Part shown: in pieces, positions 4,801 to 43,800 of the stretch
Layout: each line of letters begins with the position of its first letter
Numbering within the stretch: position 1 is the first letter of the stretch
Assembly: GCA_963971305.1 (NCBI GenBank)
Contig: OZ020317.1
Location: 14,650,001 to 14,714,000, forward strand
DNA length: 64,000 nt
Source of the DNA: Arcuatula senhousia
Lineage: Eukaryota; Mollusca; Bivalvia; Mytilida; Mytilidae
Direction of reading: 5' to 3'
Made by a program: the position numbers and the translations under genes
The notes under the pieces: model-generated
The model's input: the letters and a program-made list of their open reading frames with translations, nothing else
Database searches by the model: none
Told to the model about the DNA's origin: nothing

Positions 4801-7800
4801 TTTATAGTTCTCTTGCATAGGCAGCTGAACAGGTTCAAATCACTATTAGACTATAGTTGTGTCCTTTTCATGTATACCAAAATGCTGAAAACATCGAAAA
4901 GCTTAGAGTCCTCTCCTATTTTCAATTCCTCGATCTATTTTACCACATGTAAAAGCATCTACTTATGGTAAGAAAAGTTTTAATTTTGCTGCAGCTGTAA
5001 TGTGGAACAACCTTCCAGACCATTTTAGGACTGAATGCAGTTTTTCCCATTTCAAAAGTCTCATTCAGTCCTGGAATGGATCTGTTTGTCACTGTTCTGC
5101 TTGCAGGTAACTTTTATTTCTGCTTTAGACTGCTTACTTTATGTTCCTTTTAGCTACGCCTACTCTATATGCTGCTTGTGCATGTTAGCGCTTTATATAT
5201 TCTTGCTTTTTTATATGTTTGTTGCTAATTTAATCTGCTTGACCCTGTAGTGCTTTTATTGTCATTTATTTTACTGTATTTGTGATGTCATTTTATTGTT
5301 AGCATGCATGAAGTTTTATGTTTGTCTATATTCGATAAAAAGCTCATCAGAGCTGTGCCGAATTGAAATAAAGTTTTCGTTTTCGTATTCGTATTGTAGA
5401 TTTGCCATCGTTCTTTTGCATAGGCAGATTGTTATATTTAGGAGACTAGTTGAGAAACAGTTACATTGTGATTATTTCGTGTACAAATATATACCAAAAT
5501 GTTGCAAAAGCATCGAAAGCCTGCATAGAGTCCTCTCCCGATTTTAATTCCTCGGTTTTTTTTTTGGTAGATTTTCTATCGTACAATCTTTATAGTTTTC
5601 TTGCAAAGGCAGATTGTTGGATTAGGAACCAATTCAATCAGACTAGTTGAGAAACATGTATACCAAAATGCTGCAAAAGCATCGAAAGCCTGCATGGAGT
5701 CCGCTCCCAATTTTAATTCCTCGTTTACCGATATTGCATGTATTGTAGAATTGTTATCATAGAATCTTTATTGTTTCGTTGCGTATCAATCAGTAAGATA
5801 CACCCCTTTGTTAACATATTAATGCTTATAAAACATAACAACGTGAAGTGTTTACCGATGCATAAGATGTAATTAACGAATTCTTCTTGGCAAACAATAT
5901 TATTTACACATTCTTAATCTATTTCGTGTTTAATTAGATAATCCCGCCTTTACAAATATCGAACTGATATGAGTAAATAGTGCATATCTATAGATACTGA
6001 TTGCTTTTCTTTATCATAGAAGAGAGTCGGTAGTACCTTTTACGGGACAGCGGGAAAGGCTTCTTTACTCACTGAAGAATTCGGCATTTTACTCATAAAA
6101 CTTCGGGAATTTGCTATTTTTACGTACTTTGCTCAATTATTTTACCGGAAAAAGCGGGATTTGGTATTTATTTTTACGGGGTGCGGGAAGAGACCCCAAC
6201 CTCAGACCCCAACCTACCCCCCCCTAGTTGATACTAGCAAGGAAGTACACAATCTATATAATTCCTTGATACTAGCATGTACACGTTTTAACAGAACCTT
6301 TTTTTTTCAAAGTCAGGGTCAGTCAAACTCTGAAATACTAGCAACAAACACCTAGCATTGATAAGATTTTTTTGTTTGCATGATCCAACAAAAAATAAGC
6401 CAGGTTTTCATTGACTTGCAGTTTCGTATTATTTTTAATTTTAGGTTTATGAATTTATACAAACAAACTTCGAAGGTTTTTTCGAATTGGATTCCAGCCA
6501 TTTTGTTTTAAGATTATCCTCGAATTTAAGAAAAGTTGTTCGAAGTTTGATAACCTTAATTTGGAACTTGAAGCTTATAATGGAACTGTATTTTTGGTGT
6601 TCGTTGAGGACACACATTCATTTGAAAATAAAGAATACTGATTTATATTGGAATCTATACTTCTACTATTGTCTCCCGGGACGTCTATATTCTATATCAA
6701 GGTTCAAGAGGAAATGAATTCCACTAGCACTTATTGACTCTTTTGTTCTATTTATCATACTTAGTCTAAATGATATAGATTTATTCCAACCTACAAGACC
6801 TAGTACTGTAAGGTAACATAAGCGTCCTCCTAATCTGCTGGCATCACTGTGGACCATTTGCGAATCGAAAAAATAAATGCCTTTATGCACTCATGCAACA
6901 GCATCTTTTGAAAAGATATCAATCGATGCGTTTCTGATAGATGCCTGGTTGCTATAAACATATGGTTTGTTGCTAAAAGCAGGTGCAGTCAGCGACAGCA
7001 ATCAGGTCTATATCACAATCGCAGAGATCTATCTCTTTACAAAAATAGCACCTGAAGTTCGCGTTGCTGATTGCTTTTCGGTTGTTTTTTTGTTTTTGTT
7101 TTTTGTTTGTTTGTTTTTGTGTTGTCTGTTTCTTCGTGTTGTTCTCGTTTGTATTGATCGACGTCGTCCTTGCCTTTTCGTACTTTTGATATCCCAATGC
7201 TCCATTGGTACCTCTTAACTTCATAATTCTTTTTAATGACAGTAACAAGGGCACGTGTGTCCGATTATATCAATTATGCATAACTTCATCATTCCAAAGC
7301 TCAAACCTGGAAAAAGACAGGTGTTGCATATGAAGCTTCTATTCAGTTTTGGAAGAACCTTAAGTATCCATTTTTTTCTTAAACCTATACTCTGTCTATT
7401 GAATTTCTAATTTCAAATATAAAAATATTGCTTCGGTTTATTGGCCAATCTAGAGCTCATCTGTAGAACAAATTAATTTAATAATGAAAAATGTAGTTGG
7501 ACTTGTGTCCGATTTTCGATTATAAGGTGCAATGGTACATCATGTATTTGCTTTTTTATGTAATCGGAAAGCCCTAAACTCTTTATAAGAACAATAAAAA
7601 AAGACGGAAAAACTGCATAGATTCAGGTGGTATATAATCGTATATAAATGCAATATTTTAGTACAATAACCCATTCATTAATGCTTGCACACGTCGAAGT
7701 TATCTCGACCATTTAATTTATGTCACAAGATAACTTATTTTGTGCAGTTAAGTAATTATTTAATGATAAAATGTATCAGTTGATCGTAAACTTTTAATAT

Positions 7801-25800: not shown

Positions 25801-28800
25801 AGTTCTAGACTCCCATCCATAAAAATAACAGAAAAAAGTTGCTGCCAAGATTTCATGGTTTACAGTGATGACTCAAAATTTGTGTGCCTTTTGCAAAAGC
25901 AGGAAATATGTATTTTTAAGTCAATAGTTTAAAGGTCAAGGTTGCATTAACTTCAACAAATATGCATGCAGGACATCTCATGCAGTACTCTTGCATGTGA
26001 TTGGCTTTTTAAAACTTTTATTGTGTTGATTGTTAATTTTCATGTAAGATTGTAGGTTGATAGCTTTATCAAAAGAAAATATAAATAAAATGTATTAATT
26101 AAAAGCATTTCAGAAACAAAATCACATTGGCATAATATCGAACAATGGATAAAGAGTTGTTGATACAATTGTATAAGTTGATCCAAAATCCATGTATCAT
26201 ATATTTAAATTCTGCTTTCTCTATTTTAGATTGATGCCTGGGTTAAGTTTGTTTGACAATTCTGAACTATTTCCATTGTCCATGACGACAGAGTTACCGG
26301 AGTGTGATTGTTCTCGTTCATCTTACCAGACCTCATGTCCTACATCAACCTCAGATCTACCTCAGTTCCTATTTACTCTCAAAGAGACTACTTCTTATTG
26401 GTTGAACCAAACAAAACTGTCCAATCAAAATCAAGATTACTTATTCAGTGGGGATTTTAATGATGAGGAGATTGTTTTGAAACAGGTACCCTCAAAAGAC
26501 GGACAGCTGGCAAATGACCAATGTCAGAAAATGTTTGCAACTTCAGGGATTGCAAAAACATGTCTAAACAAAATCAAAATAAACATTGACAATGTTGTAA
26601 ATATTTGTGTTGCCTTGGCAACATCGTACAGGAATTCAACATGGATTCCAGAAGTTTTGAGATTGTTGGAAAATTTATGTGAGACCAATCTTCATAACAA
26701 TGAAGAACAAGACACTTCTGATATTAACATTGAAGACATACGACAAGCCATTCTTTGTCCTGAAGGTTGCTATGGTAACGGTATGTGTACAGAGACAGGA
26801 TGTTTCTGTTACCATGGATACACTGGTATCGAATGCCTCACAAGAACAGGTAAGTTTCTCAAACATTGTTTCACAGACAGTGATTTCTATCATGTATGTT
26901 TTTTTAATGGAAAAGTATATTGAAAGTGTTGTGCATTGTTAAATTAGACAATTTTTTCAAAAAATTTCTCCTGATATTCATTTTCATTTGCATTGTAGGC
27001 GGTTCTATATAATTTTGAAGAAAAGTGCATAGTTTATTTCTCTATTTACCGGCTTTGGTGGTCAGGGATCAATTATTTAGGACTTCTTTTTAAGCTTACC
27101 TTAATGAATGAGAAACTTAACATGCTTAGGCTATGGCCAATCTTGTAGATGAAATAGAGTTATACTGATGAGAGGTTACTCCTTGAAATATCAATTTACA
27201 GCATAACCAAATTAACAGTTTTATACCCGTTTTTGGTATTGTTATATGGAAAAAAAGTACTTACTTTTAACATTTTGTTGGGTTTCAGAACAATATTTCT
27301 ATTAGTCATTTCACAAACTCAACCCTCTTGCTGCCAAAAGGACAACTGTGTCCACTACCGGCTCACTGCCAAACGAATATATGTATCCACTACCGGTTCA
27401 CTGCCAAACGGACATATGTGTCCACTACCGGTTCGCTGCCAAACAAACATATATGTCCATCCGACAAAATGATCCAATGCAACTTTATCATTCCTTATAA
27501 TTTAACACGCCTTTAATGATAGAAGAATAACTAATAAACAATATGGAACAAAATGTAAAAGTGGTTTTCATGTATTGTTACCGTAAGTCCGTAACAAGGT
27601 CAAAAATAAAAAAAGATGTCTCATTTGATCAAATATTCTATTGTAATGTCAGGAAATTGTGGTGTTGGCGACGTCATTCAAAGTTTTAGTCTGGTAGCAA
27701 GAGGGTTAAGTATTTTACATATTTGTATTGTTTTTTCCCCCAGAAATTATTACAACCTCAACTTTGCCAACTACCACCACAACAAAATCAACTGCAGCAA
27801 CCGCAACAAGTACTACCTCAACAACAACTACCATGACAACCACAACCACTGAAGCATATCCTGTCACCTTGGTTACCTGTGATGTCAGACAAAATGGCTG
27901 CAGATCTGTAAATGTGGCCTTGACCTACAATTATAGAGAGTCTCCATATCAATGTCATGTGACCCTTGTACAGGTTTGTTATATCAATTAGTTTACTTTG
28001 CATATCAGACAATAGACCATATCAGACTAGAAAACTCAGAAAATAGATTTAAGGGTGCAAGGTATAGTTTTGCAAAGTGACGTCATCAGATGAAAGCAAC
28101 ATCACCTTCATGCTTGAATGGAAATAAGATATTTTCCTGTAATATGGACATCTATATATCAATAAAAAGCTGAAATTCACCACTTTTTAATGGAACCCAC
28201 ATAGTAGACTTATTCATATTTGAATATTTCATCAAAACTGTCCAAAATGAACAAAAAAGGGGGTGTTTTGTGTAAAATTTATGGGTGTCATCCCATTTCT
28301 GAGGCTAAATTCCACTGACTTGTGACCAAATTTCAAGTCTTAATAATAGATCGCTTGAAAGAGCATGTCACTTAGGGCAAAAATTTGGAACAAAAAGGGT
28401 ACGCTTTCCAGCTCTAAAGAAAAATATTTTTGTTTACCTGAAAAGTGTCATTTTGACATCTGCAAATATGGCGGGATTTATAGTTGTCTCCCTGCACACT
28501 GAAGTTCTTATAAAAAAATTTTAAAAAAGAAAATAAACCTGTTGTGGCATTTTTAATACAAAAATATATCTAAACAATCATAAAAGTTTAAAATATTTGA
28601 TGATTTTCACTTCAGCTATATGAATAGACAGGGATTCCCTTACCTGTGTTTAATGTATTTGGTAAAACTCACTAGTATTTTATACGAAACTGTGTCTTGC
28701 ATCGTTTAAAGCATTATGATGCATGAATATTCTGATGAAAGCAACTTTTTCTGTTTCGGTATCTTATTGCGAACACAATGGTACCTTATTTTTGTCGTTG

Positions 28801-31800
28801 CGATAAAAAATAGCGAAAACATACAGATTCTCATACAAGACCTTGCGATGAAGATTTTTGGATTTTTTGCATTCATGAACTGTTTTCAGCTGAAATGTGA
28901 AGCTTATATCAATACTATGCTTTTTAAACAATCTAACATAATTATCTTAATAAAAATGATATTGTGATGGCAATTAATCATAGTTTATCTAAAAAAACAT
29001 TCAAAGGGATTTTTTTTTTTACCTAGTTTTGCCATAAAATAGGGTCATTTTAAGTTTATTTAAGAATTTGGGTATTACAGATGGTTTGTGCAATACCCAT
29101 TTAACATACTTTACTAGCTAAATGTAAAAAAAAAGCATCTACTGTATACATGTGGTAGATGGTTGAATGATAATTTATAATTTTATGTACTATAAATGGT
29201 TTCTAAGTCACAAATTGTTCCCTCTGTGAATGCGAAAGACATGAAACGTCGCAAAAGTATGAAATGACGTCACATATTGCATAATGACTTTGAGTGTTTT
29301 ACTGGTAACTATGGAGTTTTCATGAGAATTATGAATGTTACTGAGCCAAAATTGTTCCAATACATTGGTATTGTGTATGTTAACAAATTGACAATTGTAT
29401 CCAAGACCTAAATAAACCAAGTAGACCCTAAAATGATTCATAAAGTAAGTATATATGCCTTTAAAGGGTGCAAGGTATAGTTTTGCAAAGTGACGTCATC
29501 AGATGAAAGCAACATCACCTTCATGCTTGAATGGAAATAAGATATTTTCCTGTAATATGGACATCTATATATCAATAAAAAGCTGAAATTCACCACTTTT
29601 TAATGGAACCCACATAGTAGACTTATTCATACAGTAGACTCCACGAAATCGGATATCGGCTACTTGGATATATCGGCAAATGGGATAGAATATCAAAACA
29701 CCAAACCATTTCCTATTCTTTCTATATATTTTTTATCGGGAAATAGGATATCGGAACATTGGATATATCGGCAAATAGGATAGAATATTCCTTCAAAAGT
29801 TTGCCATTTTGTATAAAAATCGGATATTTTTTGTATTTCAGAAGATCGTGATGACCGGAAGTTTGACATAAGTTTTCAACAACATTTGCATTCAACTCTC
29901 TGTTTATGATTTTTAATAAACAATGTATATTGTATTTACTAATAAAGATGTTTTTATTCAAACACTTGTTTTTATTTAAGCAATAAAAGATCTGTCTTAT
30001 GTGTGTTTATTTTCTTGCACACCTGTCATTCATGATCATCGTACATGCCGGAAGTCAAAATATAAATGTTTTAAAGCCTTTCATGTTGTTATTTCTGAAA
30101 CAGCTAATAAAATATATTTCAAAATGATATTGTGTTGGTACAAATTAAATTTATTAGTGGTGAAGTCTGTGTATATTTAGTGTGTGGGAAACACGTAGGT
30201 CATTGAAATTACAGGTGTACTTATTACGTCATGACTGTAAACAAATCATGTGAGCTGTGTAATGCTAACATTTCAACTGACTTCCTTTATTGAAGGTTTT
30301 CAATTTTGAAACATTGATATTCCTCCACTATGATGTCAATCTTGAAAAGGATGTCTCAATAGATTTGAAATAAAATCCAAAACGATGTGTGGACAACCAC
30401 ATGGCTAATCAACATTTTGTAAATCCCTAGTCGCCATTTTGAATATTCATGAGCTGCTATAATCTCATATTTGATTGACAAATGTAGACAAATTTTGTCA
30501 TATTTATGAAAATGTGATCTTGAAACGCATAATTTTACGATTTAGATGTAATATGAATGAATACCAGCTTTTAAATCTCGTTCATTGATAGAGAAAAAAT
30601 TGCAGATTCTTTTTAGAAATTAATAAATTTTCTACAATGTAAACAACAAAGATGGACGACCTCAGTAAAACACATGTTATGGAGGGAATATAAGTACACA
30701 AATTGATGAAAATTATTTATTAATTAATAAAATAACTATAGCTATTCACTAAATCCTTTATTCTTGCATGATACAACAAATATATAATATGATGGCATCC
30801 TCAACACGGAACACTTGGACAAGACTTGGAGTTACGTCACCAAAACTGATATTCGATCTCTTGAAATGGCAAATCGGATATCCTGGGTAATCGGATATTT
30901 TTTCCTGACAAATTCGATATCCGATTTGGCGGAGTCTACTGTATTTGAATATTTCATCAAAACTGTCCAAAATGAACAAAAAAGGGGGTGTTTTGTGTAA
31001 AATTTATGGGTGTCATCCCATTTCTGAGGCTAAATTCCACTGACTTGTGACCAAATTTCAAGTCTTAATAATAGATCGCTTGAAAGAGCATGTCACTTAG
31101 GGCAAAAATTTGGAACAAAAAGGGTACGCTTTCCAGCTCTAAAGAAAAATATTTTTGTTTACCTGAAAAGTGTCATTTTGACATCTGCAAATATGGCGGG
31201 ATTTATAGTTGTCTCCCTTCACACTGAAGTTCTTATAAAAAAATTTTAAAAAAGAAAATAAACCTGTTGTGGCATTTTTAATACAAAAATATATCTAAAC
31301 AATCATAAAAGTTTAAAATATTTGATGATTTTCACTTCAGCTATATGAATAGACAGGGATTCCCTTACCTGTGTTTAATGTATTTGGTAAAACTCACTAG
31401 TATTTTATACGAAACTGTGTCTTGCATCGTAAAGGCATAATGGCTTTAAAATCAGGAAAAATATATAAAAGAAGCAGTTTAATCTCACTCAATATAAATA
31501 TATAGGTAAAGCAGAAAACAGACAACAGATTAAACAACAACTTACGATTTGAAAATTTTCAAAACAAAAATGTAACTCAGTTGCTCTGGGAGGTAAAAAA
31601 CTGTGTTTATCTTAACTATTGTAAGTATTGATTACCGTATAGCAAGTTTTTTTGCCTGGGTAATTTTCATGGTTTTTTGTCATAATGTAGGTGAGAAAAA
31701 TTTATGGGCTTTATTTTTGTGATCTCTGAATGAGTTTGTGTTGGATTTGCGTTAGATAGATATTTTTGCGGGAATTATATTTAGTTGACCGATGAAAATA

Positions 31801-34800
31801 AGCAAAAATTAAACCATCGTGAAAATAAACAACTATATGGTATAATAATTTCTTTTTGTACAATTGTATATAAATAACATCTGCCATTCTGGGAGTCTAT
31901 AAGAACCATTTAAACCGATATATTAATAATTTCTCTCTTGCAATTTAGTTTATAAATGGCATATGGGAATCTGGTAGAAATATGTACACCACCATGTTGA
32001 GATTTGTTGATGCTTCAACTGTTGAATGTATGTTACCATTGGTAACTAACAGGGGGAACAACTTTGCAAATGTTTACAAAGTTGAGGTAAGCTTAAATTT
32101 AGAAATTGTCAAATTCAGAAAATACTTTTGTCTTAATGTGAATGTTTTAAATGTATAAAACTTGGAAGCCAAAAATTCTACAGAAGAAATAAAAAGAAAA
32201 TCAAGCCTAAAAGCATAAAACACAATAACCAAATTATTCAAAATAACATACTGTAAAAGGGGATTATTTGGCGTGGTTTAAATTTCGTGTTTTAAGTACC
32301 AAAATGCATTTGTGAGGTTTTACTTTTGCGTTTTATTAGATCATGGAATATTGGGTCCTTCTAAATGTAATTTACGTGTGGGTTTTTTTTTCGCAAATTT
32401 GTTTTGATCGCGATATTAGCGGAAATAAACCCCTTGCGAAAATTTCCCCTTTTACAGTACCAACTTTGCAAACATTTTAAAACATTTGAAAAGTACTATC
32501 ACACCTGAAGACTTTTGAGGACCACTTCTAACCTACATCATGCTCCATGTTGTTAAAAACAACCTACCATGAAAATTTATTGAAACCAACATGCAAATTA
32601 ATATGCTCTAATAGAATCTCTTAGCATTTTAAAAGTGACCTGAGTGGGGTTAATTGCAGAAGCCCCATGTGAATGCTAAATGAAAATGACCAACCTTTAC
32701 CAATTGAGTTGTAGAAAATTAAAATTGATTAAAAGTACTAAAAAACTATCAAACTGGAATAATCAATCTCAAATGTCTGTAACAAGATACAATACTCACC
32801 AACAAGTTATAGCTTGGTCAGCAGTGTATAGAAGGTCCGAAGACAGCAAGCAGGAGCCTGGCCAGGAATATGCGTCTGAATCAGTAACCGGAAGCTGCTT
32901 AGGATGAACCCAATGACGTCATACGTATCCCTCCGCCGGTCAAGCATACCAATCACTACACTCCCCTCCCTTTTCTCTAACAAGACCCCCCAAAAGGGGG
33001 TTCCTGGGAGGGAGTACGAAGGGTCCCGCCTAACCGATAGGGTCATCTACCAAGAGGCTAAACTCAAATTAACTTTGAATTAACTTTTCCAGGCCCCTTC
33101 CCACAAACAGACCTAACCCGTCTGTCTACCCCCTCCACGGCCTGGCTAGTCCTATTTCTTCAGGACCAGCCTATTTACTTATACTTTTCCTATTCCTGCC
33201 CCCTTCTCCCTGGGGCCAACCGTTCGTATCTGAATTTCCCCTCTACTGCCCGGCTAGTCCTATCTCTTCAGGACCAGCCTATTTACTTATACTTTTCCTA
33301 TTTCTGCCCCCTTCTCCCTGGGGCCAACCGTTCGTATCTGAATTTCCCCACTACTGCCCGGCTAGTCCTATCTCTTCAGGACCAGCCTATTTACTTATAC
33401 TTTTCCTATTCCTGCCCCCTTCTCCCTGGGGCCAACCGTTTGTATCTGAACTTCCCCTCTACTGCCCGGCTAGTCCTATCTCTTCAGGACCAGCCTATTT
33501 ACTTATACTTTTCCTATTTCTGCCCCCTTCTCCCTGGGGCCAACCGTTTGTATCTGAATTTCCCCTCTACTGCCCGGCTAGTCCTATCTCTTCAGGACCA
33601 GCCTATTTACTTATACTTTTCCTATTTCTGCCCCCTTCTCCCTGGGGCCAACCGTTCGTATCTGAATTTCCCCACTACTGCCCGGCTAGTCCTATCTCTT
33701 CAGGACCAGCCTATTTACTTATACTTTTCCTATTTCTGCCCCCTTCTCCCTGGGGCCAACTGTTTGTATCTGAAATTTCCCCTCCCCAGTTTGTTCACTT
33801 CCCCCGACGTACACACCCCCTAGGGCCGGAGGTACAGGGCCCTCCCGTTGGCCACCCCCGCTGCCAGTATGTCCTGAGCCTGGGCGGACCGGGCTTCGGC
33901 AACCACCTCCGCCACCCTGAACAAGTGTGCAGGATGGTTGATGGAGGCAGCTGCGTCAGCGAGGTGCGGCGAGTCTGTCTCTAGGAGAAGCCTGTCCTCC
34001 GGTACTGCCCGAATCCCCTGCCTCTGGCCCTCGTCGCACCCCTTAGCCAGGAGGCTAAACCCAAAGTAGGTCTCTGGGTACGACTCAAGCCAGAGTTTGA
34101 CTGTCGCAGTGTCGCCGGTGAAGGTGTGCAGGTGGATACCCTGCAATCGGTTCGGGACTTTATCCTGAACTACCCCCAACAGCCTACGGTACAGCACGGC
34201 AGAAGCCTGGGAGCTACCTCCCGAGGCCCGACAATGCAATACCAAGGGCTTGTAGGGTAGACAGAGCCCCAACGCCCACCGCAGGGTACCTAATTGCAGC
34301 TCGAAGGCTTTCGCCCCCTCACCGCAATCTACCCCAATCTCCCCCAGGGCAGCAACAGCCGGTGAGTTCACCAGTCGCTCCAGCTGAGCATGACGCGCGT
34401 CGTCAAACTCCCTGGCATGCGAGGGGTGAACTCCCACTGCCATCACGAACCCTGGAGGGAGAGCCACCTTTCCCGGGTCTTCTGGCCACGTCTTGGGGTC
34501 ACAGTACACCAATACCCCTCCCACCAGTTTAACTGGCTGCACAGGCGGGGGCACCGGAGGACGGGATAAGAACTGGGCCACGCCTGTTCTGGGGCTGAGG
34601 CCGAGTCTCCGGAGGGACCGGTCCAGGTGGAAATGGCAGTCCATCCCACGTGGGACCAATTCCGGAGGCTCAACCCCTGCCCAGGCCGTCTGTTGCCGAG
34701 GTTCCTGATCACCTCCCCCTACCCTGGGGTTGGGTTTACCCCGACCAACTTCCGGTGCTTGCGGGGCACAACAGGCCGGGACCGTTCCAGTCGAAGCGAC

Positions 34801-37800
34801 ATCAGAGGTTGTGGCTTCGGTCGGACGTCCCGTCCTCCACTGAGGACCCGTTTGAGCACCGGTGCATTGGCCAGGACCACCACTCGCGCCGGGTCCTCAG
34901 ATCCCTCCGACAGACTCTGGTTAAGCCTTTTTGTCGGAGGACTCCGAGGACTCACTACCTTACCTGACCCCCTGGGAAACCGGAGAGACTGTACCGCTTC
35001 CCTCTTGGAGACAGGCAAGAGACCCAGCGTCTCAATGAGGGCCCTCCAGTTCATAAGAACTGCAGGTGAGTTAGGGGGGTTCAGAGAGAACTCCGTAGGA
35101 ATCTCCCATTCCCCCACCTGACATACCTCCCTCATTGCCTCTACCTCCTCGAGTTCTACGGATTGGCCCTCCAGGGTTCCCAGGGTGGCCAACAAGTCTG
35201 CCACGTAGGCAAACGAGCCCCTCCCGGGCCCCCCTAACACCCTCAGGATAGTCCGCAGGGCAGACATCCTGACCCTTCCCAGGTCATCCCCCACTTGGGT
35301 CAGATTGGAGAAGATCTCCGGGATGTGCTCTACCCACTTGGTGAACTGATCGATCATCATGAGTATATGTTCGTTACCCTGTTCAGTTTTGGGAAGGGGC
35401 CCTATGAAATCAAGGTGTACCTTTTCCATTACCTCCCCCGCATGATAAGAGATCATTGGGTGTCGGGCAGCCACCGTTGCCTTCTTGTTCTGGTTGCACT
35501 CCGAACAACCCTTGACATAACTGCCCACATCTTTACTTACACCCCTCCAATAAAAACTTCCCTTCACTCGCCCCGTAGTCCTTTCTATCCCCTGGTGTCC
35601 GGCTAGGGGAGGATCGTGGCACAGACTCAACACTCTTGCTTGGAGCCCCTTGGGTACCACCCGCCTTGGGGGATATTTGTCATCCCCCTTCTTCCAGAGG
35701 ATCCCGTCCACCAACTCAAATAGCTCTCGATTCACCCAATAATATTTCGATTGAGCCTCCCCGGCCAACACCTCCCCCTCCCTGGGCTCTACTTTGTTTT
35801 CTAACCAGTTTATTACCCAGGTTAAATTTTGGTCTTGCCGTTGACCCTCCTTGAGTTCAGCACTACCCGGGCCCTGTAAACTAACTCCCACCTCCCCACG
35901 GACCACTCCCACGCTGGGCAATGGCTCCCACTGCACCTTTACGCCCACATCCCCCGAGGTAACCCACACCTCTGATACCCTTGGAGTTACCCCTGACTCA
36001 GTAGCTATCTTCCCTTGAGAAAGTGGGATTACATCGTCCACGTCTTTGTCGAACATGGCCCAATTGTTCTCAGCCCGTGTACAGTATGCACACCCCCCAC
36101 ATGGCAGATCCTGGAGCTTTGTCCCTACCTTAAACCCAGGACAGGGCCCTCCCCCTGGAAGACGGCTTAGTGCGTCAGCGTTTGTGTGGTGTTTTCCTTC
36201 CCTGTACTGAATTTCCATGTCGAATTGACTTAATTCCTCAAGCCACCTAGCCAGTTGCCCCTGGGGTTCCTTAAAATTCATGAGCCAGGTCAAACTGTGG
36301 TGATCAGTCCTGACCGTGAAATGCCTCCCCATTAAATAGTGACGGAATTGGCGAGTGAACCTCACAATAGCTAGTAACTCTTTACGAGTGGTGCAATACT
36401 TCTGCTGTTCAGGGGTCAGTGTCAGACTGGCATACGATACCGCCCGTTCTTGTCCCCCCTGCACCTGCAGCAGTTCTGCCCCAATTGACTTGTCCGACGC
36501 ATCGGTATCAAGGATGAAGGGATCATGGGCATTGGGCAACGCGAGCACTGGTGCCTCTACCATCGCCTGTCTGAGGGCCTTGAATGCTTTTTCTTGTTCC
36601 TCCCCCCACTGGTAGGACCTTTTTCCCGTCAGGGCCTGAAGGGGTAGAGCTAATTGACTAGTTTTTTATAAACCCCCTATGGTAGTTGGTGAATCCCAGG
36701 AACCGCTCCACCTCTTTAGTGGAGGTTGGCCGTGGCCACTGTTCAATATCATGGACGTAGCCTGGACCAATTTGCATCCCCTCTGGTCCCACTATCCTAC
36801 CCAGGAATTCAACCCTTTTCTGGAATAGTTCGCATTTCTTGGGCTTGAGCTTCAACCCGTATTCCCTGAATCTGATGAGCACTGCACGGAGATTCTCCAG
36901 GTGCCCATTAAAATCCCTCCCCAAGACCAAGATATCGTCCAAGAAAGCCAGGACCAACTTCCAATTCAGCCCCCTCAGGACCAGGTCAATAACCCTTGCA
37001 TAGGTGGCTGGGGAGTTGCACAAGCCAAAAGCCATTCTGGCAAACTCGAACAGACCATACTTGGTTATGAACGCTGTTTTGGGCCTATCCTCCGGTTTAA
37101 TTTTGACCTGCCAATACGCCGAATTGGCGTCCAATTTAGAGTACCATATATTACCCGCCAGGGTATCTAAGCACTCCTCCACCAGAGGCAGGGGGAAAAC
37201 GTCCTTCGTGGTTTTAGCGTTGAGTGCACGGTAATCCACGCACCAACGAACCGATCCACAACGCTTCCGAATCAGAACTGGCGCAGAGGCCCATTCAGAC
37301 ACCGACGGTTGGATCACCCCCGCCCCTAACATCTTCTTCAACTGGGCCTCCTCCTCCCCTGCGAACCCCAAGGGCGTGCGCCTCATGCGCTGCTTAATGG
37401 GTTTATTGTCCCCCGTGTCTATGGTGTGATGAATAGCTTCAAAACGCCCCAGGTCAAACTCGTTCTTTGCAAAAACGTCCTCAAATTCACATAAGAGGTC
37501 GCGGAGGGCTTGTTGCTCTGGTTCAGCTAACTCCCCCTTTGATTTTTTGAACAACCCGGCCAAATGCTCTGGGAGGGCCTTTTCCCCTTCCCCTGGCAGT
37601 TCCCCTTCCGCGCGGGAAACCTGCTGGACAATTATTTCCTCCTCCCCTGGCCGCACCTCCTCTGCGTATGAGAGAACCAACCCCCTCCCTACCTCAATGT
37701 GATGGTCTGTGGGGTTGATCAAGCACACCACCGGTTCTTCCCCCCCTTTATGCAAGGTTCGAGGAATTAGCACATTCTGCTCGGTGGTGCAAGCGCGGAT

Positions 37801-40800
37801 GATAAAGTTTTCCTTAATGGGTTCGCTCAGTTTAGCCCCTATTCTCATTACAGAATTGGGTGGTACTCTACACCCTTGGACCAAAGACACCCCTATCTCC
37901 CAATCCTCCGTCACTGAGCCCCCTTTTCCCCACGACATCTGGATAATCTCATCCTTGATATGGAGATGTCTCTCCTTGAGATGTAAAGATACCCCATGTG
38001 GCTCTAAGAAATCTAACCCTAACAACATTTCATCCCCGATCGGTGCTACATACAAATCCACCGAAAAACTCTTCGACCCCAATCCTACCTCAAAGGGGCC
38101 TGCAATGAACCCGTTCATCTGCATTCCCTTGCCTGCGGTGTTCATGACCACTTCCCTACGTATGGGTGGGGCGTTATCTAGAGATTTGTAAAATTCCTCA
38201 GATACCAATGTGACTTGAGCTGCAGTGTCCACCACTGCTTGTAAAGGGACCCCCTGGACTCTAATAGGGACCCTAAACATTGCCCCATTGGACAGTTTCA
38301 ATATGGAGACGGGCTCCTCAGGGACTTCCGGGTTGCTCAATGGGTGGGGCCCTTCCAGTGTATGACCCACCTCCTCTATACCAACCATAGTATCGTCCCC
38401 CTCCCCGTCGGACTCAGTTTCGGAGTCATCAGAGTCTGTAACCGCTTCCGGGCCTACACTCCGAAGCATGAACCCCCCTTTGGCATGGGAGTCGACAGCT
38501 AGCGAGCCCCATCCGTCACACGGGTCAGGCATGCCCCCCTGTATCACCCTGACTGTGGCTAGGGGGCCCGAGTCAGGGGCCTCCATGGTAATCTCCCTCA
38601 CTTCTGGGGTTTTCCATATCCCAGTTTTTCCCTGTGTCAATGATTGGGTCTTGTCTTTGCTGAGACCGTTCTGTGGTTGGAGGGGCTCACTCAGGCCTCT
38701 TGAGTTGCCCCCCTGAAGTTTAAAGCCCCCTGTTGTTCTTGGAATGTGACCCGCCTCTCTACCTTCGGTGACCCCATGAGCTTCGGGCATTCCCTCTTGA
38801 AATGTCCCGGATCCCCACAGTGGAAACACCCCTGCTCCCTTCTAGGGGAGGGACTCCTTGACTGGGACCTGGACCACCCACTCCGGCCCCTCTTGAGTTC
38901 CTCGAGAACTCCCTCCATGGTTTTTGCAAGCCTCCCCACTTCAGATTCTAAACTCCCCAACCGTTTCTCATGTTTTTGACTTGTGGAATTTATCCCCTCC
39001 CCTAGGGCAAAAACGCTTTTCTCCCCGTCGGTATGATCCCCTCTCTCAGATATTTGCTTTACCTCTTTCCGGGTTGGGCGCCCATAAATAGCCTGGTGAT
39101 TGTGTTGGTGCCATTTCATTTTATCTATTGCCTCATCAACAGTTTGTGGGCGAATGTTAGAGGCATAACTACCCGCCTCTTTGTCCACTGCCCCTTGGCA
39201 GAACCTTACCACCGCTTGCTGGTTCAAGTGGGCCTCCGGGAGGTCCTGGAAGGCCCGGGTGGCCAGGGACAAGACCCTGTCCGCCCAGTCCTCTAAGGAT
39301 TCCTCCGGAGACTGCCGTGCATTGTTAAACTGCACCTGAGCTGTTTCTGGGAGCTCCCTAAACCCAAAGCGCCTTTCCAGTTTTTCAACTAATTCCAAAT
39401 AAGACATGTTGTGTTTGCGTTCAACCATGAGAGCGTAGTACTCACTGGCCTTGCCCTCAAGGCACCAACACAATTGATCTTGGCACTCCTCCCCTGACCA
39501 CCCACTTACTTCGGCCAGCCGGGCAAATTTAGCATAAAATGCCTTCCAGTTTGACTTCCCATCAAATTTAAGGGACTTGGGCAGGTTTACTGTTCTAGCT
39601 CGTCCCCCTTGCTGGTCATCCCTCCTATTTCTATGACCCCCCCTTTCCTCCTGCCACCTTCTCCCCCTACTAGCCGGAGTGTATGGGTCCTGGTCCTCAT
39701 CTGGGCCCACGTGTCGACCACTGTCCCGCCGACGCCCTCCCCCTCCATAAGGAGTTGCTACTCTGTCCCTGGCCTCCCCACCCCGGGCTCCATAACTGTG
39801 GGGGGTCCCCACCTCAGATCCCCCTCTACCCTGATCAAACTCCCCGGGGTCTTCCTCCCAACGCCCTCGGGGGGACTCCCTAGCCATATCATACCCAGCA
39901 CGCATGCCTGAATCCCTCCTAGGAAATTCACGCATGGGAGCCCGGTCACAGTCCCTTCGATCTCGCGAAGACCACGCCTCAAAACCGTCGCGTTGTAACT
40001 CCCGCGGTGACAGCCCCCTGTTCGGAGACAGAGCTGATCGGTCCCTACCCCTCTGGAGTTCCCCAAGACCCCTAATGTCCCCTTTCCTGGGAGTTGGTCG
40101 GGCCAAAAAAGCAGAATCTAGTTCCTCGTCCCCTGACCCCTCTTCACCATAAGGGGGTAAGTCCCACTTATTGCTCCTAGGGCGAGCCGGGGTGGACCCT
40201 TCCCAACTTTCCACCAACTGATCAATTGATTTCACCCGTTCCCTATGCTGGGCGTCTAAATCCAGGGTCCCCTTTCGCTCCCCTACAGCCCCCCTTCTAT
40301 CACCAGGGGTAAAGTCCAACACTTGCAACAAGTGCGGCGTTACTCTCAAATAAGGGAGATCATACAGGTCATCCAACTCTAAGTCCCCCCTCTGCTCCCT
40401 TAATTCTATAATGCGGTCGGCTATTTTATGCCCAACCCCTGGGAGAGACCTCAGCTCGTCTACTGAACACCAATTTACAAAAACCCTCGACATCGCGATG
40501 ATCAACTATAACACAAAACAACTGGTGTTTTTATATGTTGTGTATGCTACTTTTTGCAGTCCAGATTTTTTACACTGGGCTGAATGTTTTTTTTTCTTTT
40601 TTTTTTTTTTAAAACTGACAAACCAGGGTCTAATAATGGGTGTCTTGACAAATGGTGATGATATTGTTCAAGTAAACAAACAAACTTACGATAAACCACA
40701 AGATTGCTTTGGATTTTTCTCTGTAACCAGGGAAAAAAGGTCCTTCCACGAAGAAAATCTTTGAGGAAAGGGTCGCTTCCGGTGCAAGATTTGGGGTTCA

Positions 40801-43800
40801 CACCTATCCCAACACGGGAGTTGCTCCCCTCTCAAATGACCAAAAAATGCCCAATGCGGGGTAAAATTACCAAACTTTGACTGAAAATTTCTTATAACAG
40901 GACTCTGGATCATAAAACCTTCAAAAATCACCCTTGTGCCCCACAAATAATGATTTTGGCAAATATTCCCTAAAATTCCAGACTACGTCACAGGCGTCTG
41001 AGAATTAGTACAAAAGATGGCGGTCAAGGGTCACTCTCAGCAACCACAACAACCACAAATATCAATGAATATACACAGTACCGCTGTTCGAAACGTAGTC
41101 GCAGCGCCACTGTAACAAGATACAATACTCACCAACAAGTTATAGCTTGGTCAGCAGTGTATAGAAGGTCCGAAGACAGCAAGCAGGAGCCTGGCCAGGA
41201 ATATGCGTCTGAATCAGTAACCGGAAGCTGCTTAGGATGAACCCAATGACGTCATACGTATCCCTCCGCCGGTCAAGCATACCAATCACTACATGTCCAA
41301 GAAGAAAACAGACGGAACAAGACAAAGACAGCCTGGAGAAAATGAAGATCACAATGCAGATTCTGACTTGGTACAGGCATTTTGAAAAGAAGTTGTGAGT
41401 TAAACCAGGTTTTATGATGCCAAACCTCCTTCTGCATGTTTTTGTAAATATTTCTTCATTTGAACAAAATAGTTTTGTTAACCATTAATGTTTAAAGTTA
41501 TTAAATGACATTTTAAATGACATTGACATTTTAGATACCAGATCCTAGTGGAAAAGTTCTCACCTCTCTGCTGGTAGCAGTTATAGACAGTGTTTGTCAG
41601 GATTGTGATATCAACCGAGGCTGTAGTCTGAGGGTAATATTCTAACTAAAATTTTCTTATTAAACGAATGAGAAACATTCATGTAGTAAATTTGATATTC
41701 TTAATTTTTAGGAGAAATAGCACAATATAAAAATCAATGCTTTGAGATTGTGAAATAAAATACATGCAGTCTTTAAACCTTGAGTGATGTTAATAGATGA
41801 TACATTATAATTTGGTATACTTTAGTTCATGTTTATCTGTATTATCTGTTTGGCCACAGTTGGAAATCCATAACTATTTATGACATTTTACGTGTTTAAG
41901 TTTTATAAAGATACCAGCAAATCTTTTTGAATTTTTAACTGTTCTTTACCCTTGGATACCAGGGGGAGATAAGTGGATTTTTTTGGTTTAAATTTAAATT
42001 CCATAATGGCGGTTCAAGTATTCTTGGTAAACTTCTTAAAATTCTGATTAATTATACCCCCCGCAAACAAAGTTTGGGGGGGTATATAGGAAACACCCTG
42101 TCTGTCTGTCCGTCTGTCCATCTGTCCACATAACTCGTAAGCGCTTCTCTTCCTAAACCGCTTGAAGGATTTTGATGAAACTTTACCTAAAGGAAGTACA
42201 TCATATGTAGATGTGCATGAAGAATTTTCATCGCAATCAGACATCATTCAGGGGAGATAATTGGACTTAGACTTTTTAAATACATTATACAATGGGAAAC
42301 CTCGTAAGCGCTTCTCCTCCTAAAAGGCTTGAAGGATTTTGATGAAACTTTACCTGAAGGAAGAATATCATATGCAGATGTGCATGAAGAATTTTCATAT
42401 CAATCAGACATCATTCAGGGGAGATAATTGGACTTAGACTTTTTAAATACATTATTCAAAGGGAAACCTCGTAAGCGCAACTCCTCTTAAAACGTTGGAT
42501 GGATTTTGTTGAAACTTTACATGAAGATAGTACATCATCTGTTCATGTGCATGAGGAATTTGTATTGCTTTTGGTTATCATCGAGGGGAGATAACTGGAC
42601 TTGAGATTTTTCTTTTACAGTACAGAGTCCAATATGAAGCGGGGGTATCCTTTTGTGAGCTCGCTCACAGTATTATTTGTTTTCTTTTGTTTTTAGCCAC
42701 AGACCTGTTACATTGATAATGAATGCTACATGGACAGAAGTGTCAATCCTAAAAACAAGTGTTTTCAATGTAGATCTGAAGAGAGCACTGAGACATGGGT
42801 AGAAAATAAAGGTATTCAGTAATTTCTTTTCACACAGTTGTTAAATGAATCTTTAAATGCATCAGTTATTTGAAGATAGGAGTAAAGTGATTTTAAGGGA
42901 GGCTTATGTGATACCCTTGGCGTCAGCGTCACATTGCACTGACTCACAGAATAATGGTTAAGATCCATTCCCCCTTACTAACAAGTGCCACATCAATGAT
43001 ATTGGTATGGTATGTGACCTAGTGTCATAATGCTAAGCACAATGCATGCTTCAGATGCTGCCTGTGACCTATATTTTCCACATGGATGGCCACTTACAGA
43101 AGAATTGTTTAAGTCCATTTCCGCTTACTGACAAATGCCACATCAATGATAATGGTATGATAGGTGCACCTAGTGATGCAAAGCACAATGCATGCTTCAG
43201 ATGCTGGTTGTGACCTTTATTTTCCACATGGATGAACAAGGAAGTATGATAAAATCATGAAACTTTATGAAATGCACCAAGGTGTGAACAATCAAATTGG
43301 TCTTAGTTTAAACCTATTTATTTATCCTTGATTGGGAAAACAAGATTGATGCTTATGTGAATCCCGCTCCAGTTTGCAGTTTGTGAATGTGGCCTTTGTA
43401 GTGACCATAATTGAATTTCTCTTATGGAACTCTACAAATGCATCTTCCCATTCATGGAATGACCTTTTTTCATCCCTTCCAAAGGACTTGCATTGTTTCT
43501 TGAGACCATCCTCACAAATTGTGCTAAGAGAGCATCAGAAAATGGTCTTGAGATCTGTCATCAGCCTCATGGTGGCTCCCGCAGGGTATCCCCCTCAGGT
43601 CGCAAGGTCGCTTTTAAAAGGGGTCTGAGGTCGCAAGGTTGCTTTTAAAAGGCATATTTTGCGGGCGGTCGCTGGTCGTTTTTTGGCATAGGTTGATTTT
43701 ATGAAGTGTAGGTCGGAAGTCGCCCTTAAAAAGCCCTCAGATAGCAGGTCGTTTTTAACCCTGTGGGAGCCACCTCATGGCTAGGTGAGTACTGAAAAAA

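Follow-up and report, generated by a model that had tools for sequence, protein, structure and literature searches.

The window analysed here is a stretch of 64,000 nucleotides from the bivalve Arcuatula senhousia (GenBank assembly GCA_963971305.1, contig OZ020317.1, positions 14,650,001 to 14,714,000), and it contains a long terminal repeat (LTR) retrotransposon of the Ty3/Gypsy type that carries a TatD nuclease domain. The element lies on the minus strand, from 41293 to 32778 (Table 1). Like other elements of this type it has LTRs, a target-site duplication (GACA on either side) and a purine tract. Since its two LTRs are 100% alike, the insertion must be young. The gene order is gag, then protease and reverse transcriptase (RT), then RNase H and the zinc domain of integrase (IN), and finally TatD. 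The order protease, RT, RNase H and IN is complete in a relative at locus L032, and is kept in the window as far as the IN zinc domain.

The minus-strand open frame starting at ATG 34644 matches the Pfam family TatD_DNase (PF01026) over residues 40-271 (E 7e-31; 108 bits against a cut-off of 27), and sequence comparison with solved TatD proteins gave a best E of 5.1e-10. The frame holds the motifs HxH, GVHP, E, H, H and ETDSPHL, among which HxH, E, H, H and D are the metal ligands. Its AlphaFold2 model has a pLDDT of 95.3 and a pTM of 0.93. Among the 17 best rows of a Foldseek comparison with the PDB, 14 are named TatD, TATDN or deoxyribonuclease (6l25), and the remaining three are an uncharacterised amidohydrolase (3e2v, in two rows) and an uncharacterised metalloprotein (3gg7). 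The domain is predicted to be a class II (HxH) metal-dependent nuclease.

A first-pass annotation of this DNA had described a 274-codon gene between pol and the polypurine tract, inside identical LTRs. The frame, its place and the identity of the LTRs all stand, but the frame is the C-terminal domain of a longer third open reading frame (ORF3) and not a whole gene. A stand-alone gene is excluded by sister copies in which the TatD frame runs on upstream (to 650 amino acids in L033, and to 577 in L011 until an interruption in TatD). When the window is compared with the sister copy C1 (L075 and L011), which has no such deletion, the match breaks off and is picked up again about 1.7 kb further on. 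The deletion took the integrase core, the C-terminus of pol and the N-terminal part of ORF3, and joined the second part of pol to the middle portion of ORF3. The TatD frame is now separated from this ORF3 remainder, which is fused to pol. The identical LTRs indicate that the last transposition was recent, and a copy without an integrase core was probably moved in trans by proteins of intact relatives. The earlier suggestion that TatD replaces part of the lost integrase function can be set aside, because relatives carry both proteins and the loss is private to the window. Nor is the stop-free frame of the window copy a sign of selection, as had been proposed; with identical LTRs it is simply young, and selection is seen instead in pairs of copies from other lineages. 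The LTR, the 108-bp repeats and TatD of the window all recur in sister copies on other contigs. In the C2 copy of the family (L033:3376-5474 and 5629-7728), a 2.1-kb direct repeat at 99.95% covers the integrase end and part of ORF3.

Table 1. Features of the LTR retrotransposon in the window
Feature	Position	Strand	Evidence or remark
Target-site duplication, GACA	41294..41297; second copy 32774-32777		
5' LTR, 183 bp, TG...CA	41111..41293	-	Repeat comparison; same as 3' LTR
Candidate 5' splice donor, GGTGAGT, close to LTR end	41127..41133	-	Placed similarly in the 239-bp LTR of L032
gag open reading frame, 604 aa	38691..40505	-	HHH_3 5.9e-7, zf-CCHC 1e-5; N-terminal helix-hairpin-helix, C-terminal CCHC knuckle
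pol part 1, aspartic protease and RT	36658..38829	-	RVT_1 1.2e-28, gag-asp_proteas 4.5e-9
pol part 2, RNase H and integrase H2C2 zinc domain	34719..36563	-	RT_RNaseH 4.7e-34, Integrase_H2C2 6.7e-18
Deletion junction, 11 nt aligning with both sides	35320..35330	-	Window against C1 copy (L075 and L011)
TatD nuclease domain, C-terminal domain of ORF3, 274 codons and stop	33820..34644	-	Pfam; structure model
108-bp tandem repeat run, between ORF3 and 3' LTR	33130..33785 (limits approximate)	-	In sister copies too
Polypurine tract adjoining 3' LTR	32961..32977	-	Read from sequence
3' LTR, 183 bp, TG...CA	32778..32960	-	Repeat comparison

The window gag shows a weak similarity to PNMA (1.7e-5, slightly below the Pfam cut-off). 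The helix-hairpin-helix at its start is, to our knowledge, unusual, and a weak match to the same domain occurs in L071:1271-2251 (HHH_3 0.0074). Outside the 5' LTR, a 167-bp unit is repeated three times head-to-tail at 42134-42634. Direct repeats of 300 bp (28217 and 30942; 100%) and 171 bp (28048 and 29461; 99%) lie within 28048-31241 and suggest another recent mobile or duplicated sequence.

TatD-bearing ORF3s across the genome

In the relatives of the window element, ORF3 is a separate gene after pol, and its product joins a C-terminal TatD domain to a helical middle part and one or two zinc fingers. It is 626, 686 and 650 amino acids long in L031, L032 and L033, respectively, with TatD matching Pfam at E 1.8e-29 to 3.9e-36. 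The pol genes of these three loci encode RT, RNase H and integrase and end in a PHD finger; the pol frame has interruptions in two of them, L031 and L033 (in L033, inside integrase). The PHD finger (PF00628) was recognized in all three pol C-termini scanned (L031:2070-5924, L032:1069-5421 and L033:3307-4305; E 4.4e-12 to 6.8e-10), and is possibly a chromatin reader for target choice; inspection by eye only revealed none in the pol ends of L044 and L045. A TatD-bearing ORF3 follows pol at ten more loci (L037, L038, L044, L045, L047, L048, L049, L050, L051 and L052), with one stop in L038, and in L046 it follows gag alone. In all 15 ORF3s aligned, the zinc-finger residues C60, C65, H75 and H80 and the TatD residues H255, H257, E343, H379, H409 and D459 are unchanged. 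In a structure model of the L044 ORF3, disorder at the start gives way to a zinc-finger region and then a helical one, and TatD begins around residue 249. TatD proteins rank first when the whole model is compared by Foldseek, and none of the 50 matches listed names the zinc-finger or the helical part.

Five environmental proteins (P0063, P0064, P0066, P0067 and P0068) have the same layout of zinc finger and TatD, with 28-33% identity over 89-92% of the length, and thus the layout is not private to this genome. Another metagenome protein from the JGI (P0073, 587 amino acids) has five CCHC zinc knuckles fused to TatD. A further one, P0021, carries the label Ca. Thiodiazotropha and may be host clam DNA.

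Genome-wide linkage was examined by a Pfam search in which 150 of 273 TatD, 105 of 2469 RT and 150 of 2011 IN candidates were scored, so that all counts are lower bounds. All 150 TatD places exceed the Pfam cut-off, and 91 lie in open frames of at least 500 amino acids. Upstream on the same strand there is IN in 93, RT in 49 and either of the two in 99, and the IN-TatD spacing is 1.3-2.8 kb in 89 of the 93 linked places. The controls gave IN within 8 kb on the opposite strand in two of 150 and downstream in one of 150, and RT within 10 kb in none on either count. Conversely, TatD lies at most 8 kb downstream of IN in 95 of the 150 IN places, and downstream of RT in 38 of 105 (a count that drew on 126 of the 142 TatD rows of an earlier search; a further 104 RT rows are outside these counts). 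Some places do not fit a general linkage: 55 of the 150 IN places have no TatD match within 8 kb downstream, and 51 of the 150 TatD places have no listed IN or RT upstream. Six of the latter were read, and proved to be the host TATDN3 gene (L041; E 1.1e-87 to human TATDN3), a Helitron (L042), a DUF6589 element (L043) and three elements without pol (L046, L073 and L074). Outside this genome, a scan with alignment A1 of viral contigs (31 pattern matches) and bacterial and archaeal contigs (30) found no encoded relative, and a single match among viral structures, to an uncharacterised protein of Yasminevirus, a giant virus, had E <0.001.

The position of ORF3 after pol raises the question of its expression. 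The word GGTGAGT, a candidate splice donor, begins 23 nt ahead of the LTR end in the window and 35 nt ahead of it in the L032 element, whose LTRs measure 239 bp (pair 99.2% identical); shuffling predicts such a word in around 1% of LTRs of this composition. Acceptors were scored by a custom scheme as a pyrimidine-rich AG within 12 nt of the assumed ORF3 start in 17 elements. A score of at least 0 was found at 11 of the 17 starts, compared with 217 of 1584 control ATGs, and a score of at least 6 at nine of 17, compared with 30 of 1584. In L037 the acceptor is at the head of the frame and an early ATG is absent. These signals suggest that ORF3 may be expressed from a spliced subgenomic RNA, as is env. 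Several points weigh on the other side. The score is below 0 at the assumed start of six of the 17 ORF3s; the 17 elements share descent, which makes the significance of the acceptor excess too optimistic; and two of the scored ORF3s have no TatD, one with an acceptor (L034) and one without (L036). L071, which forms the 5' part of the L046 element, has no GTRAGT word in its initial 1400 bases. The zinc-finger ORF3, the PHD finger on the sister pol, the splice signals and the lineages without TatD all go beyond the first-pass annotation.

Inheritance and selection

An RT tree of 18 rows and a TatD tree of 14 rows have a deep split in common, with 100/100 support in both. Clade A contains L037, L044, L045 and L047-L051, and clade B contains the window, L018, L028, L030, L031 and L032 (the RT of the L045 lineage was taken from L061, another copy of the same family). 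Pairwise RT and TatD distances are correlated among the 14 lineages (Mantel r 0.72, P 5e-5) and also inside each clade (A, r 0.70, P 0.003; B, r 0.78, P 0.011). The finer forks are partly unresolved, and the two trees disagree at some forks inside clade B. Median terminal branches are longer for TatD (0.80, 14 rows) than for RT (0.38, 18 rows). The element group is varied and apparently old. Capture from the host or a bacterium had been proposed for the window gene; a recent capture is not supported, because TatD occurs in both branches of the deepest RT split examined and stands apart from the sampled bacterial TatDs and from host TATDN3.

Not every lineage has the domain. The RTs of L053, L054 and L055, whose elements have no TatD, are placed inside clade B. 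The RT tree has no outgroup, and loss is the simpler reading. The RT of L055 is nearly the same as that of L056, an element with a TatD match. L035 has no recognizable ORF3 at all, even though a sister with a nearly identical RT does have TatD, and the ORF3s of L034 and L036 have no TatD but a zinc-finger part matching the N-terminal part of the others (split over two overlapping frames in L036). TatD is therefore dispensable in some lineages.

The seven active-site residues H4, H6, H73, E102, H137, H173 and D224 are intact in all 14 lineages, in which identity to the window TatD is as low as 21%. Ratios of nonsynonymous to synonymous substitution rates (dN/dS) were computed from 17 TatD stretches, and are reported for pairs at 40-99.9% identity. 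In the six pairs that combine 17 or more synonymous changes with an identity of 75% or higher, the values are 0.03-0.16: 0.07 for L024/L027 (17 synonymous and 4 nonsynonymous changes), 0.09 for L013/L014 (21 and 7), 0.16 for L014/L016 (21 and 12), 0.15 for L015/L018, and 0.03 each for L020/L022 and L020/L021, which are near saturation. Lower counts gave 0.11 for L025/L027 (14 and 5) and 0.06 for L024/L025 (5 and 1). Codon changes in the pairs that have enough of them thus indicate that the TatD domain is under purifying selection. Higher ratios that tell against this were found for L013/L016 (0.76; 2 and 5 changes), L021/L022 (0.46; 12 and 19), the window and L002 (0.35; 1 and 1), L023/L028 (0.23; 5 and 4) and three distant pairs that include L029 (0.27-0.30); decay of copies after insertion would raise dN/dS in close pairs. 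Taken together, TatD is old, co-inherited with RT and under selection, with some losses. The claim that a Ty3/Gypsy-type element carries a TatD whose active site is intact and which selection has retained is borne out by the Pfam match, the ligands, the linkage to pol and the dN/dS values.

Possible origin and function of the mobile TatD domains

TatD is also carried by elements of other classes. Directly downstream of the coding stretch of a Helitron (L042/L067, G000:C10:3312400-3322500; Helitron_like_N 5e-31, PIF1 helicase 2.1e-34, OTU 9.8e-10) there is a TatD open reading frame of 297 amino acids with a possible CCCH finger. At L043/L069 (G000:C5:6231500-6239700), a TatD frame of 309 amino acids, a length shared by several frames in the genome, lies downstream of long DUF6589 coding frames with a cysteine-rich stretch; no repeat was found between the flanks of this locus (L069 and L070). 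The three elements without pol (L046, L073 and L074) have no RT or IN match in the stretches read, and all three retain gag and ORF3 sequence. In L074 (G000:C6:53956700-53960500) the N-terminal half of gag, the ORF3 zinc fingers and TatD form one open frame of 836 amino acids, and the L046 element is flanked by L071 and L072, which have in common a direct repeat 127 bp or more in length (99%).

A tree of 35 rows (without TATDN1 and YjjV) sets the mobile TatDs apart, with 97/90 support, from E. coli TatD (partial), YcfH, TM0667, S. aureus TatD and TATDN3, and origin from the sampled bacterial TatDs or from the host TATDN3 is thereby rejected. A provisional sequence of the human TATDN2 domain falls among the mobile TatDs with L042, L043 and clade A at 92/84, which is below the support threshold and serves as a lead only. 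The HxH class includes TATDN2 and TATDN3, and TATDN2 of higher eukaryotes has an extended N-terminus (PMC10085689); the mobile TatD proteins likewise have both HxH and an extended N-terminal region. In the account of the giant squid Hox cluster, a 'TATDN2' frame is listed among the non-Hox frames, together with POGK and ZMYM1 (PMC6962438), and this frame may be such a mobile element. We tentatively consider, as possible rather than probable, that one portable TatD lineage is present mainly in LTR retrotransposons, Helitrons and DUF6589 elements and includes the animal TATDN2 clade with the human R-loop nuclease. TATDN2 would then have been domesticated from an element, or else captured and spread among the element classes through a common RNA-DNA hybrid or 3'-end step. 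If so, many invertebrate 'TATDN2' genes would be transposon genes, counts of TATDN2-like genes in invertebrates may be transposon counts, and a human genome-stability nuclease clade and the TatDs of mobile elements would possibly be one lineage.

The intermediates of LTR elements include RNA-DNA hybrids, primer remnants and 3' overhangs. TatD enzymes are 3'-5' exonucleases on single-stranded 3' ends and endonucleases at abasic (AP) sites (PMC10085689), and TATDN2 is described as a 3' exonuclease and endonuclease of RNA, with the ability to resolve R-loops (PMC12709183). Since these activities match the substrates of an LTR element, we favor a nuclease acting on the element's own intermediates, followed by counter-defence and then by a passenger enzyme. 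That ORF3 is a zinc-finger-guided 3' nuclease for the element's own cDNA or RNA-DNA hybrids seems to us an even call. ORF3 would be made from a spliced subgenomic RNA, with a donor near the LTR end and an acceptor at the ORF3 start as in retroviral env; the zinc fingers would bring TatD onto the element's own nucleic acid; TatD might then trim 3' ends, clear RNA remnants from RNA-DNA hybrids or incise abasic sites; and this action could aid cDNA maturation or repair, before or during integration.

Alternatively, TatD might protect its carrier by degrading host guide RNAs, or by removing the ends or lesions that host defences make or sense. TatD frames in three unlike classes of mobile elements in one genome (LTR, Helitron and DUF6589) speak for such a role, and the faster evolution of TatD than of RT would fit an arms race. 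However, the pairs with many changes are under purifying selection, there is no hint of a host target, and more than a third of the IN places (55 of 150) have no TatD match downstream; counter-defence, although a serious contender, is the less likely reading. Less probable again is that the element needs only the zinc-finger part, for RNA or cDNA binding, export or targeting, and that TatD is an old enzyme of little weight. The zinc-finger residues C, C, H and H are indeed unchanged in all 11 ORF3s compared, including the two without TatD, and the RT places without a downstream TatD match include open frames up to 2619 amino acids long; yet a domain of little weight would hardly keep seven of seven active-site residues in every lineage at such low identity, or a low dN/dS of its own. 

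An env-like protein that serves cell-to-cell spread would also be in keeping with the location of ORF3 downstream of pol and with its acceptor signal. A zinc finger with a nuclease is unlike a membrane protein, and ten of ten ORF3 proteins scanned against Pfam have no envelope domain at E <=1, which makes such a role very improbable. We see next to no chance that the window alone is a chimera, a misassembly or a one-off capture of a host gene. The deletion in this copy and the break between its TatD frame and the ORF3 remainder would fit such an origin, but the sister copies on other contigs and the 99 of 150 TatD places linked to IN or RT refute this, and are the opposite of the copies lacking TatD, or TatD lacking a linked RT, that the first-pass annotation had named as grounds for doubt. 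Lineages with and without TatD occur together in this one genome, which makes the role of extra enzymatic frames in retroelements testable.

Comparison with known systems

The mobile TatDs resemble E. coli TatD, YcfH, YjjV and human TATDN1 and TATDN3 in fold and metal ligands, but are only around 16-25% identical to these cellular proteins over the fold. The TATDN2 clade is also of class II (HxH), with a long N-terminal extension and a C-terminal TatD (PMC10085689, PMC12709183); TATDN2 differs from the mobile TatDs in being a host gene that is not known to be mobile. Chromodomains and DnaQ-like exonucleases are well-known accessory domains of LTR elements (PMC6338049), and the sister pol likewise ends in a module resembling a chromatin reader, here a PHD finger. 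In the open-licence literature of PMC, judged mainly from titles and the openings of abstracts and with Repbase Reports outside the search, we found no TatD-carrying retroelement, and the word TatD is absent from the main text of a survey of mollusc LTR elements (PMC6238403). Enzymatic ORF3s are already known in LTR elements of rotifers, and we found no report of TatD as ORF3, which is apparently new. The accessory genes of LTR retrotransposons thus gain a nuclease of another fold, co-inherited with RT across a deep split.

The nearest parallel is provided by Vesta and Juno of bdelloid rotifers, in which ORF3 encodes a DEDDy exonuclease or a GDSL esterase (PMC5408684). In both systems the ORF3 downstream of pol codes for an enzyme and not for an envelope protein, a nuclease of 3' ends is encoded, catalytic residues are mostly retained, and one type of frame is common to unlike classes of elements. 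In A. senhousia, however, ORF3 combines the TatD fold with zinc fingers, TatD spans the deep RT split and is under purifying selection, whereas the rotifer frames are absent from the earliest branches and show no significant departure from neutrality (PMC5408684).

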